Position numbers and translations under genes: made by a program. From Comamonas sp. lk (GTDB taxonomy: Bacteria; Pseudomonadota; Gammaproteobacteria; Burkholderiales; Burkholderiaceae_C), in the NCBI GenBank assembly GCA_945925985.1, contig CAMELV010000010.1, positions 52,894 through 116,893 on the forward strand: a stretch of 64,000 nucleotides of DNA. The letters run 5' to 3'. Every line of letters begins with the position of its first letter. Position 1 is the first letter of the stretch. The notes under the pieces were generated by a model that saw nothing but the letters and a program-made list of their open reading frames with translations, made no database searches and had not been told where the DNA came from. This document shows positions 3,874 to 21,670 of the stretch, piece by piece.

Positions 3874-4857
3874 ATGCCAAATCGAACCCTAAGCCTTGTT
3901 CAGTCTGCGTTTATTGCTCTATTTATGATGGCGAACAGTGGATTGGCCTGGGCTCAGTCGGATTACCCCAGTAAGCCGGTCAAAGTGATCGTGGCCTTTC
4001 CGCCCGGCGGGACCAGTGATGTGATGGCCAGAATGCTGGCCGACGAACTCAGCAAGAGCCTCAAGCAGCCCTTTGTGGTTGAGAACATTGGTGGCGCTGG
4101 TGGCACCATTGGCGTTGAGCGGGCCCTGAAATTGCCGGCTGACGGCTACACCCTGATTCAGACTGGCGTCGGCCAAAGTGCCGTGGCCCACGGGCTCGAC
4201 CCTAATTTGCGCTACAACTCCATGAGCGACTTCATCCACCTGTCACAAGTACATTCGGGCCCCAATGTGCTGGTGGTGCACCCCGCCACACCGTACAAGA
4301 CAGTCGCCGACGTGGTCGACTTCGCCAAGAAGAACCCCGGCAAGCTGGACTACGGCTTTACCCATGCGGCCTCTGGCCACATGGCCATGGAGCTGTTCAA
4401 GCAAACCGCCGGCGTTGAGCTCACTGGCATTCCCTACAAGGGCGGCGGCCCCATGCTGATCGACCTGCTGGCCGGTGTGATTCCCACCATGTTCATCAAC
4501 CAGGATGCGGCGCTGGCCCACGTGCGCTCTGGCAAGATGCGGGCCATTGCGGTGAGCAGTGTGGCGCGCAACCCGCTCTACCCTGATGTGCCAACCATCG
4601 CTGAATCTGGCTACAAAGGTTTTGAGGCGCTGTCCTGGTCGGGCATGTCGGTGGCCAAGGGCACGCCGCAGGCGGTGGTGGACAAGCTCGAAGCGGCTAT
4701 TACCCAGGCCATGCAGTCCGACACGATCCGCCAACGCATGAACTCGGTTGGTTTTGTCGTGCCGCCGCAGGGCAGCAAGTCCTACACCGCCTTCGTCAAG
4801 TCCGAACTCGATACCTGGGTGCGGGTGATCAAGACCGCCGGCATCAAGCCGGAGTAG
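3874..4857 (+). CDS. Bug-family (TctC-like) periplasmic solute-binding protein
   Basis: A 327-residue protein with a signal peptide ending ANSGLAWAQ and a mature start SDYPSKPVKVIVAFPPGGTSDV, which is the Bug hallmark (VxVxFPPGG). The ENIGGAGGTIG segment and PADGYTL also match. Bug proteins bind small carboxylates and related acids for tripartite tricarboxylate transporters. No TctA/TctB membrane partner is encoded nearby. A good ribosome site (AGGAGAACAG) precedes the ATG. The gene is followed 133-178 bp later by the isomerase gene, and both point towards the P450/ABC cluster, so it may deliver a compound of that pathway (inference). Confidence 0.9.
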   Translation: MPNRTLSLVQSAFIALFMMANSGLAWAQSDYPSKPVKVIVAFPPGGTSDVMARMLADELSKSLKQPFVVENIGGAGGTIGVERALKLPADGYTLIQTGVGQSAVAHGLDPNLRYNSMSDFIHLSQVHSGPNVLVVHPATPYKTVADVVDFAKKNPGKLDYGFTHAASGHMAMELFKQTAGVELTGIPYKGGGPMLIDLLAGVIPTMFINQDAALAHVRSGKMRAIAVSSVARNPLYPDVPTIAESGYKGFEALSWSGMSVAKGTPQAVVDKLEAAITQAMQSDTIRQRMNSVGFVVPPQGSKSYTAFVKSELDTWVRVIKTAGIKPE

Positions 4858-5035
4858 TCCGGATCGACTTCGACTCAGGCGGGGTATGCCAGCTAGTCAG
4901 ACCTCGCCATGGCTTAACAATGGCCATGCCAAGGTGCCTTAGGCCAAAAGAAACTGGGACACAATCGAGCCCACTCGCCTCGCCGGATGGATGTCGGATG
5001 GGCGTTATTCAAACTCCAGCACGAAAGATGGCCCA

Positions 5036-20798: not shown

Positions 20799-21670
20799 TG
20801 GAAATCTCGCACCAAGATCGGGTGGCAGACACCGGCCAGTCTTCCAGCTCCACTGAACCCATGAAGTCATTGCGAACGGGCTTACGTATTCTGCTCGAGT
20901 TTGAAAACAGCCAACGCGATTTCAGTGTCACAGAGTTGGCAACGCGCTGCGGCCTGGCCAAAAGCCAGGTCTCGAAAATCCTCAGCGCCTTGGTCGACAG
21001 TGGCCTGGTAGTGCAGGACCCGGGGACTCGCACCTATTCGGTTGGACAGCGCTGCTATGTGCTGGGCTCCCGGTTCACCACGTATGACGGCCTGTGTCAG
21101 GCTGCCACACCGGTGATGCGTGAGCTGCTTAACCGAACCGGTCACAGTGTGCGGCTGTCAGTGCCGGACGGGGAGCAGACGCTGTACCTGATCGGTCTGG
21201 AAGGGCCGATGTTCATGGACACCGGTTGGCGTTCTGGCAGCAGCGTGCCATTTGGCGCCTCTTCGGCCGGCCGCGTTTTGATGGCCTACCTCGATCCCGA
21301 AAGGAGGCGGCACTTGCTTAGTTTGCCCGTACCAGCGCTCACCCCCGACACCGTGCGAGATCGTGACACCTTGGAACGGCTGATCACCGCCGCTCGGCGG
21401 GATGGTTATTGCGTGCAGCGCAACGAAACCTCGCCTGGTCTGGGTGTGGTGTCCGTGCCCCTGTTCAAGGCGGCACAGCAGATCGTCGGCGCACTGGGTT
21501 TGGCGTTTCCATCCCACCATATCGACGTTGACGCTGAACGCGCGCTGATCGCAGCGCTGCACGAGGCGGCGCGTGCGATCTCCCAGCGCTTGGGTTGCGG
21601 CGTTTACCCCTTCGGCATCGGCAAACCCCAGGGTGTGCCGATGGATAGCATCACACCAGCAGCGCGTTGA
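20798..21670 (+). CDS. IclR family transcriptional regulator
   Basis: About 290 residues. The N-terminal winged helix is VTELATRCGLAKSQVSKILSALVDSGLV, and an IclR effector domain runs from about residue 90 (TPVMRELLNRTGHSVRL). The ATG at 20798 forms TGATG with the synthetase stop. An ATG nine bases earlier (20789) is the alternative. IclR proteins bind a small acid and act as repressor or activator at GGAAA/TTTCC palindromes. Such sites lie in the divergent region at 13819-13844, so this is the likely pathway regulator. It is the last gene of the arm it would control. Its last 20 bases overlap the 3' end of htpG. Confidence 0.9.
   Translation: MEISHQDRVADTGQSSSSTEPMKSLRTGLRILLEFENSQRDFSVTELATRCGLAKSQVSKILSALVDSGLVVQDPGTRTYSVGQRCYVLGSRFTTYDGLCQAATPVMRELLNRTGHSVRLSVPDGEQTLYLIGLEGPMFMDTGWRSGSSVPFGASSAGRVLMAYLDPERRRHLLSLPVPALTPDTVRDRDTLERLITAARRDGYCVQRNETSPGLGVVSVPLFKAAQQIVGALGLAFPSHHIDVDAERALIAALHEAARAISQRLGCGVYPFGIGKPQGVPMDSITPAAR

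Follow-up and report, generated by a model that had tools for sequence, protein, structure and literature searches.

A two-armed genomic island of Comamonas sp. lk predicted to import and break down a cyclic carboxylate or amide

The window, a 64,000-nucleotide stretch of Comamonas sp. lk DNA, contains two divergent gene sets that share a short intergenic gap, which raises the question of whether they form one functional unit and what kind of compound such a unit would handle. An earlier note, made from the sequence alone, had described them as one uptake and catabolic cluster, with a Bug receptor as an additional member. The genes that it named are present as open frames and belong to the families that it gave (Pfam), at the positions listed here. 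No Rfam family and no tRNA gene was found in the window.

4857..21649, genomic island (flanked by the resident Bug gene and htpG; G016 alignment)
3874-4857, + strand, TctC/Bug gene (open frame, Pfam)
4991..5893, + strand, TIM-barrel dehydratase/isomerase, QuiC-like (3-dehydroshikimate dehydratase N-domain; PF01261, AP_endonuc_2, 105.5 bits)
5874..6632, - strand, class II aldolase/adducin family protein, aldolase or decarboxylase (PF00596, 102.6 bits)
6629..7885, - strand, cytochrome P450 (PF00067, 93.4 bits, cut-off 22.8; heme Cys motif FGDGTHHCVG)
7913..8737, - strand, LivF-like ABC ATPase (PF00005; likely start near 8629)
8626..9468, - strand, LivG-like ABC ATPase (PF00005, PF12399; likely start near 9387)
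9368..10261, - strand, LivM-like permease (PF02653, 138 bits)
10258..11148, - strand, LivH-like permease (PF02653, 156 bits)
11295..12575, - strand, LivK-like periplasmic binding protein (PF13458, 175 bits; likely signal-peptide start near 12422)
12572..13153, - strand, SnoaL_4 (NTF2-like) protein (PF13577, 83.1 bits)
13172..13684, - strand, VOC/glyoxalase-fold protein (PF00903, 39.3 bits)
13685..13865, divergent control region (181 bp)
13810..13824, + strand, IclR-type palindrome 1 (TTTCC-N5-GGAAA, 1 mismatch)
13830..13844, + strand, IclR-type palindrome 2 (TTTCC-N5-GGAAA, 1 mismatch; 20 bp from palindrome 1)
13866..15233, + strand, amidohydrolase of a clade with Glu321 in place of Asp (PF01979, 130.8 bits, cut-off 25)
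15230..15976, + strand, SDR 1 (PF13561, 204.6 bits)
15979..16686, + strand, ThuA-like protein (PF06283, 87.2 bits, cut-off 33.4)
16661..17476, + strand, SDR 2 (PF13561, 168.1 bits; likely start near 16712)
17406..18686, + strand, two-domain MaoC-like protein without the hydratase His (PF01575, 41.3 bits)
18711..20798, + strand, NDP-forming acyl-CoA synthetase, fused (PF13380, PF13607, PF13549)
20675..21670, + strand, IclR-family regulator (PF01614, PF09339; likely start near 20798)

The limits of the island were placed at 4857 and 21649 because a genome of the same genus, G016 (locus L140), carries 51 bp in place of the 16.8 kb found at the same spot in the window. The G016 sequence aligns with window positions 4435-4856 and 21650-23715, on either side of these 51 bp. 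The island so defined comprises 16,793 bp and 17 genes, from the TIM-barrel gene to the IclR gene, the last codons of which fall in htpG-side DNA, beyond the junction at 21650. The Bug gene is a resident neighbour of the island. In G016, where 140 of its residues lie within the sequence available (96%), it is next to htpG with no island, and its membership in the cluster, as proposed in the earlier note, was consequently rejected.

The leftward arm runs from 13684 down to 5874 (VOC, SnoaL_4, LivK/H/M/G/F, P450, class II aldolase) and the rightward arm from 13866 to 21670 (amidohydrolase, SDR, ThuA, SDR, MaoC-like, NDP-forming acyl-CoA synthetase, IclR); the TIM-barrel gene is convergent with the leftward arm. 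Within the arms, neighbouring genes, taken as longest frames, overlap or are at most 30 bp apart, except for LivH and LivK, which are separated by 146 bp. The gap between the arms measures exactly 181 bp, as had been reported, and contains both palindromes next to the amidohydrolase start; the pattern TTTCC-N5-GGAAA was picked after inspection of this region. Locus L008 of a relative has the same pair at the same spacing (positions 7816/7836), L088 has one perfect site and L010 one site with one mismatch, and the palindrome of L009 is weak, since 67 of 1000 shuffles reach the same score. A 16-mer written from palindrome 2 has no second match in the 4.29-Mb genome of the organism itself, and a consensus scan of the 181-bp gap gave no sigma-70-like site. 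The empty site and the paired palindromes in the gap are the grounds on which the two arms are regarded as one uptake-and-catabolic unit, in agreement with the earlier note, and we infer that both arms are fired from this gap. The island is probably one IclR-controlled unit, predicted to import a cyclic carboxylate or amide and to degrade it by oxygenation, dehydrogenation and hydrolysis; it combines an importer with an oxygenase, dehydrogenases, a hydrolase and a CoA synthetase.

The importer of the left arm is a complete LIV/HAAT-type set, consisting of a binding protein, two permeases and two ATPases. The LivF-like ATPase scores 256 bits against NF008626, under the cut-off of 441, and the solved relatives of LivK include amino-acid and phenylpropanoid-type binders. 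A simple motif scan of the window for a ferredoxin partner of the P450 was negative for both the 2Fe-2S and the 4Fe-4S type. The class II aldolase retains its HTH motif in 13 of 13 rows and also matches decarboxylase relatives, so that retro-aldol cleavage can no longer be its sole reading, as it was in the earlier note.

The imported compound is likely ring-shaped, and the presence of a QuiC-like enzyme suggests that it may be hydroaromatic. In a more specific form of the preferred explanation, which we regard as a tentative possibility, a hydroaromatic or cyclohexane-type acid is aromatised and channelled towards 3-oxoadipate-type products. The TIM barrel is closest to the QuiC 3-dehydroshikimate dehydratase; it matches 5hmq with an E value of 4e-46, and the E, D, Q and E positions, which we take to be metal-site residues, are conserved in the alignment, whereas its score against the QuiC equivalog NF042435 (169.2 bits, N-terminal part only) is below the cut-off of 1200. 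The best NCBIfam match of the IclR protein is the PcaR/PcaU/PobR subfamily TIGR02431, at 148.3 bits and under the cut-off of 284.75. At locus L115, a 52% TIM homologue shares one arm with CoA-transferase subunits that score over the PcaI/ScoA and PcaJ/ScoB subfamily cut-offs, although these models do not tell 3-oxoadipate from other 3-oxo acids. The adjoining FAD dehydrogenase scores 487 bits against the 4-oxocyclohexenecarboxylate dehydrogenase model, but higher against three unnamed FAD models and nearly as high (464.9) against a ketosteroid dehydrogenase model, all under their cut-offs. Moreover, the CoA-transferase and FAD genes occur in the cluster of just one relative, and none of the island genes was identified as a ring-cleavage dioxygenase, the VOC protein being unassigned.

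The amidohydrolase of the right arm bears on a second alternative. Its HxH, Lys, His and His positions are conserved, but the catalytic beta-8 Asp expected of the Xaa-Pro dipeptidase / ochratoxinase type is replaced by Glu321. Glu occupies this position in 119 of the 120 best homologues (of 1541), the remaining one being without the motif, and in 51 of 52 loci, a few of which are duplicates; all six outgroup amidohydrolases have Asp. The score against the NCBIfam equivalog NF051886 is 224.9 bits, below the cut-off of 500, and the structure model has a pLDDT of 87.8. The alternative is that the substrate is an amide or a compound of the N-acyl amino acid type, in which this enzyme first cuts an amide and the remainder is oxidised. 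Among solved structures, those nearest to the amidohydrolase are dipeptidases and carboxypeptidases, with ochratoxinase lower down, and amino acids and amides are common cargo of LIV-type importers. The top solved match of the P450 is CypX (3nc3), which we take to be a cyclodipeptide oxidase, but it is ahead of other P450s by a few bits only. Since Glu replaces the Asp of other amidohydrolases, the same hydrolysis is not to be assumed, and an amide substrate is possible, if doubtful.

The other products of the right arm differ in how far their motifs suggest a reaction. The ThuA-like protein has the ThuA fold; its structure comparison returns the expected family first, followed by glycosidase, phosphorylase and GATase-type rows, and indicates no function. 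The SHTG motif of the synthetase is conserved in 11 of 11 rows. All 17 rows read for the MaoC-like protein, which represent 10 distinct copies, show GDDNP[LI][FYW] and lack the hydratase His; the second domain of the window-type copies is also without the hydratase motif. We assume that the Asp-His motif is required of a MaoC-type hydratase. Because the His is missing in all rows read, the hydration step included in the earlier note is unsupported and was set aside. The L008 protein has a His one position further on, which was not taken as a catalytic residue.

The core of the arm, formed by the amidohydrolase, SDR, ThuA-like protein and SDR, is not unique to this locus. It is found again as a group of adjacent genes in other Proteobacteria and in Actinomycetota, frequently accompanied by P450s and an ACMSD-like amidohydrolase, and the genome of the organism itself carries elsewhere a paralogous second module of two divergent arms, without ThuA. 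Loci were picked by ThuA, and the best 80 of 145, many of them on short contigs, were compared. In 56 of these, the gene directly upstream of ThuA encodes an SDR with at least 40% identity, in 44 the gene directly downstream does, and TIM-family genes are near ThuA in 13. The 38 of the 80 loci with 8 kb on both sides contain the amidohydrolase in 22 cases, a P450 in 21 and the ACMSD-like amidohydrolase in 24. No such amidohydrolase was present in the available stretch of 32 of the best 80, including the Herbidospora and Nonomuraea loci, and Azospirillum species have a ThuA variant without the amidohydrolase. The actinomycete ThuA cluster L056 includes a 65% orthologue of the aldolase. Across 369 genomes of the class (the own genome included), the amidohydrolase occurs in three, two of which have no ThuA at E 1e-20, and ThuA in one, too rarely for co-occurrence testing.

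The whole arrangement has a narrower distribution. Among the 148 relatives searched, the own genome included, the island is whole in two, both closely related, and in pieces in a third. Both arms are present together in G000 and G086, and all island parts are syntenic in G086 (L088); this conservation and the empty site of the island-free relative show that the arrangement is not due to chance. The question, raised by the earlier note, of whether the genes are scattered in relatives has a divided answer. Close orthologues of ThuA, the MaoC-like protein and the P450 are confined to the same three of the 148 genomes, whereas G149, a more distant genome, has its aldolase orthologue (82%) apart from its module, surrounded by genes with no relation to it (abhydrolase, GDPD, pseudouridine synthase, CysZ/EI24), and its TIM orthologue on another contig. 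The complete right arm, from amidohydrolase to IclR, is found in all six loci with a MaoC-like orthologue (L005-L010, of which L005 and L007 are records of G086- and G058-like genomes, and L010 is from Rhodoferax lacus IMCC26218). Left-flank sequence is available for four of them (L005, L008, L009 and L010), and in all four the SnoaL and amidohydrolase genes are divergent. The left arm is fluid between relatives. In L008-L010, a Rieske oxygenase gene takes the position of VOC and adjoins the SnoaL_4 gene; L008 has two LIV sets, L009 only a more distant one, far to the right, and L010 none in the stretch read.

Two further alternatives remain to be weighed. Natural-product clusters often encode P450, SnoaL and VOC proteins, and a biosynthetic or self-protection role could be envisaged on this basis; it is improbable, given the complete importer and CoA synthetase and the fact that no PKS, NRPS or terpene synthase is found among the 17 genes (Pfam). 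That two unrelated half-clusters became adjacent by chance would accommodate the variable left arm and the separate G149 aldolase, but is very improbable in view of the joint absence and joint presence of the arms, the divergent junction conserved in L008-L010, and the equally two-armed, divergent paralogous module.

For the preferred reading of one catabolic unit, the following sequence of events is proposed. IclR would bind the candidate palindromes and repress the right arm until the inducer arrives, and LivK would bring in the substrate through the LIV-type importer. The P450 may then hydroxylate or demethylate it, and the two SDRs would oxidise alcohols. Isomerisation or hydrolytic opening of the resulting keto ring may fall to the ThuA-like protein together with the Glu-type amidohydrolase, and the QuiC-like TIM barrel could dehydrate a hydroaromatic intermediate. 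The class II aldolase would split or decarboxylate, and the NDP-forming synthetase would form a CoA thioester for final oxidation.

A bolder extension, which we consider unlikely, is that the island represents a branch of a widespread, undescribed aerobic ring-opening pathway, in which the Glu-type amidohydrolase and ThuA jointly open an oxidised alicyclic or hydroaromatic ring. Such a pathway would range from Burkholderiales and Halieaceae to Actinomycetota, add new chemistry to both families and open a further sink to dissolved organic carbon in the form of ring-shaped compounds, for example mycosporine-type or other hydroaromatic acids. The literature on mycosporine-like amino acids contained nothing on breakdown among the matches listed. 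More generally, if the gene set serves a single pathway, several proteobacterial groups and Actinomycetota would have a catabolic route in common, and the ThuA-like and Asp-to-Glu amidohydrolase families would acquire a new kind of function. The island offers a compact handle on this question, with one importer whose binding protein can be screened and one regulator with candidate operator sites.

The literature searched for this gene set yielded no such pathway among the matches listed, which is in line with the statement of the earlier note that it knew of none, and the known systems resemble the island in part. The lumichrome (riboflavin) catabolic operon of Nocardioides simplex is, in the portion of the paper available, likewise a large catabolic operon with a P450 and hydrolytic steps, and has a Rieske oxygenase in common with L008-L010 (PMC12746152). 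According to the same portion, that pathway employs a TPP decarboxylase of two subunits, an enzyme of the xanthine-oxidase type and a catechol dioxygenase (PMC12746152). By Pfam, the 17 island genes include no TPP enzyme or xanthine oxidase, and the lumichrome pathway, as far as this partial text describes it, was rejected as the identity of the island; 'ThuA' is mentioned 0 times in that paper (PMC12746152). The available part of the text on the molinate/azepane pathway contains no ThuA, and the P450 setting described there is unlike that of the island (PMC9477822). Quinate/shikimate catabolism resembles the island in its QuiC-like TIM barrel and in the PcaR/PobR subfamily as the best model of the regulator, although the TIM protein of the island is single-domain and its score is far under the cut-off of the QuiC equivalog. 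The quinate/shikimate route is not known to involve a P450, ThuA or an amidohydrolase. The Xaa-Pro dipeptidase / ochratoxinase group shares the Pfam family of the island amidohydrolase, which is set apart by Glu321 from the Asp of the outgroups (6 of 6). In the Thu operon of trehalose utilisation, ThuA is found with a sugar importer; by contrast, the ThuA of the island is accompanied by a LIV-type importer, SDRs and a P450.

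The island is missing as a block from G016, a genome of the same genus as the window, with 95% identity in HtpG. When reverse-complemented, the G016 locus (L140) matches the window at 4435–4856, within the Bug gene, and at 21650–23715 (htpG), with 51 bp separating the two matches, and the intervening 16,793 bp (4857–21649), comprising the TIM-barrel gene, both arms and the IclR gene, are absent en bloc. The island is real and single, and its two arms are absent together and present together at this site. Deletion of the block in G016 is the less simple reading of the empty site; the simpler one is insertion in the lineage of the window. 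The Bug gene, which the earlier note had included in the cluster, is not borne out as a member, since G016 has it at the empty site without the island.

3306–3755, minus strand: FKBP-type isomerase gene, left of Bug, named from sequence reading
3874–4857, plus strand: Bug gene, resident
4857–21649: island, 17 genes
4991–5893, plus strand: QuiC-like TIM-barrel gene

Among the 29 htpG loci sampled besides that of the window (30 in total), Bug was seen in L140 only. The FKBP gene lies ~20 to 960 bp from htpG, without Bug, in 6/29 (L148, L149, L151, L152, L155 and L166), and L152 displays FKBP plus a srkA-like gene in the same order as the window. FKBP was not seen in the flank covered at the remaining loci; L165 does have the srkA-like gene. 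On the right, the final IclR codons (21650–21670) fall in htpG-side DNA, and the island edge seems to have supplied IclR with a new C-terminal tail. The G+C content of the island is 0.592 vs 0.613 for the remainder, and same-size stretches to its right span 0.573–0.644; because this range includes the island value, composition is uninformative.

All the genes named in the earlier note were found where it had placed them, with agreeing Pfam families, and the two arms diverge from a gap of 181 bp, as it had stated. By Pfam, the leftward arm encodes VOC, SnoaL_4, LivK, LivH, LivM, LivG, LivF, P450 and class II aldolase, and the rightward arm amidohydrolase, SDR, ThuA-like, SDR, MaoC-like, NDP-forming acyl-CoA synthetase and IclR. 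Using the longest frames, neighbours within an arm overlap or are at most 30 bp apart, LivH–LivK excepted. A scan of the window detected no RNA families or tRNA. The gene set is new, its component families are known, and it includes two unexpected active-site changes.

The gap contains two TTTCC-N5-GGAAA palindromes, each with one mismatch, at 13810 and 13830, a spacing of exactly 20 bp, the second lying 21 bp from the amidohydrolase start. Two sites of this type, likewise 20 bp apart (7816 and 7836), occur in L008, where the amidohydrolase is 76% identical and the gap aligns to that of the window only from 13819 onward. The gap of L088 (from G086) has one perfect site, that of L010 (Rhodoferax lacus IMCC26218) one site with one mismatch, and that of L009 only one, with two mismatches. 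The pattern was picked after the region had been inspected. Of 1000 base shuffles per gap, the number that reached the best site was 8 for the window, 0 for L088, 7 for L008, 4 for L010 and 67 for L009, and the 4 one-mismatch matches in the whole window (1.6 expected) were reached by 4/100 shuffles. A 16-mer based on the second site has a single match in the 4.29-Mb genome at ≤1 mismatch (control, 0). The IclR of the island would bind these candidate palindromes.

Across 148 relatives, own genome included, the ThuA-like protein was found in four: own, G058 (97%), G086 (96%) and G028 (38%). Close orthologues of the MaoC-like protein and the P450 are confined to the first three, the P450 of G058 being interrupted by a contig end; MaoC-like paralogues (32–40%) occur in several further relatives. 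G086 retains the entire gene order, Bug and TIM included. In G058 the locus is split over two contigs (L089, L090), one carrying the right arm and the other Bug, TIM, aldolase and the partial P450. Outside the 148, Rhodoferax MAG-210 has an aldolase orthologue (82%) that stands apart from its module, with abhydrolase, GDPD, pseudouridine synthase and CysZ/EI24 genes as neighbours; a TIM gene of this genome (78% identical) adjoins an acyl-CoA dehydrogenase gene resembling that of L009/L115 (below), and the contig with this pair is unlinked to the right arm.

GTDB genomes searched with an alignment of 43 ThuA homologues gave 145 loci. The best 80 were retained, and every count out of 80 is conditioned on ThuA presence. 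Directly upstream of ThuA lies an SDR with ≥40% identity to SDR1 in 56/80, and directly downstream an SDR2-like SDR in 44/80; nearby are the amidohydrolase (48/80), a P450 (45/80) and an ACMSD-like amidohydrolase (43/80). The amidohydrolase accompanies both flanking SDRs in 32 of the 80. Carriers of this core include Halieaceae/Luminiphilus, other gamma- and alphaproteobacterial MAGs and Actinomycetota. The Halieaceae form (L060) reads P450-P450-GntR-amidohydrolase-SDR-ThuA-SDR-ferredoxin-ACMSD-like-MFS, the P450s and PF04909 being assigned by Pfam and GntR, ferredoxin and MFS from sequence reading. An aldolase 65% identical sits within an actinomycete ThuA cluster (L056). Against a fixed core, 32/80 ThuA loci have no amidohydrolase in the stretch covered, and the amidohydrolase occurs without ThuA in two genomes of the class sample (369 genomes) and in the second module of the own genome. 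In Pseudonocardia dioxanivorans the core genes are close together, but differ in order and are not all on one strand. The Azospirillum brasilense ThuA locus combines an ABC importer, an ACMSD-like-type amidohydrolase family protein, SDRs, a sugar phosphate isomerase/epimerase (TIM), a TauD/TfdA dioxygenase and a hypothetical protein read as cupin, with neither the window-type amidohydrolase nor a P450.

A MaoC-like orthologue (≥60%) is present in 6 of the best 80 (L005–L010), all of which hold the right arm from amidohydrolase through IclR; L005 corresponds place for place to G086 and L007 to G058. The left arm is variable: L005 resembles the window, in L008 Rieske replaces VOC and a second LIV set lies far right, and L009 and L010 have Rieske-SnoaL, with only a more distant LIV set far right in L009 and none in the stretch read of L010. 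Further along this arm, L009/L115 encode flavin reductase, acyl-CoA dehydrogenase, SDR, an APH-type protein, two CoA-transferase subunits (in L115 above the subfamily cut-offs of PcaI/ScoA and PcaJ/ScoB), a pair of TIM barrels, of which one is 52% identical to that of the window, and EamA. For the adjacent FAD dehydrogenase the best named model is 4-oxocyclohexenecarboxylate dehydrogenase (487.5 bits), followed by ketosteroid dehydrogenases (464.9 bits); three unnamed models outscore these, and all are under cut-off.

The own genome has a paralogous two-armed module on contig C7 (L131 5700–16887 and L134 1–8275). One arm, on a single strand, encodes SDR, MarR regulator, Rieske oxygenase, SnoaL, an amidohydrolase 47% identical to that of the window and likewise of the Glu type (Glu, residue 321 in the island protein, where outgroups have Asp), and an ACMSD-like amidohydrolase found in 4/148 relatives, own included. 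The divergent arm encodes SDR, LivHMGFK, SDR, two P450s, two further frames and two acyl-CoA dehydrogenases, one of which matches the IpdE2 model below cut-off. ThuA is absent from this module, the own genome having one ThuA match in all; a related arrangement with ThuA occurs in L026 and partly in G028 (L004). Elsewhere, a Glu-type amidohydrolase adjoins a Rieske oxygenase-like gene, after which come MadB-like AAA ATPase and MadC-like VWA protein genes (L133 11857–15486). A Rhodococcus rhodochrous plasmid (L125 7989–13249) carries an Asp-type amidohydrolase (34–35% identity) with 4-HPA 3-hydroxylase-like, alpha/beta hydrolase, RidA and FAH-family genes, surrounded by transposase genes. A short contig of G151 encodes a DruA-family (Druantia) protein (L124 379–1284).

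The island is probably an import-and-breakdown unit under IclR control, with a cyclic carboxylate or amide as its predicted substrate. The QuiC-like TIM barrel points to a possible hydroaromatic acid, with the L115 genes as weaker hints, and solved relatives of the amidohydrolase point to a possible amide. Consistent with the earlier note, no described pathway with this gene set appeared among the matches listed from the open-access literature, which leaves most subscription papers outside. Among described pathways found to mix P450, hydrolases and a Rieske oxygenase, the lumichrome operon (PMC12746152) is the nearest; its TPP and xanthine-oxidase type enzymes are missing from the island.
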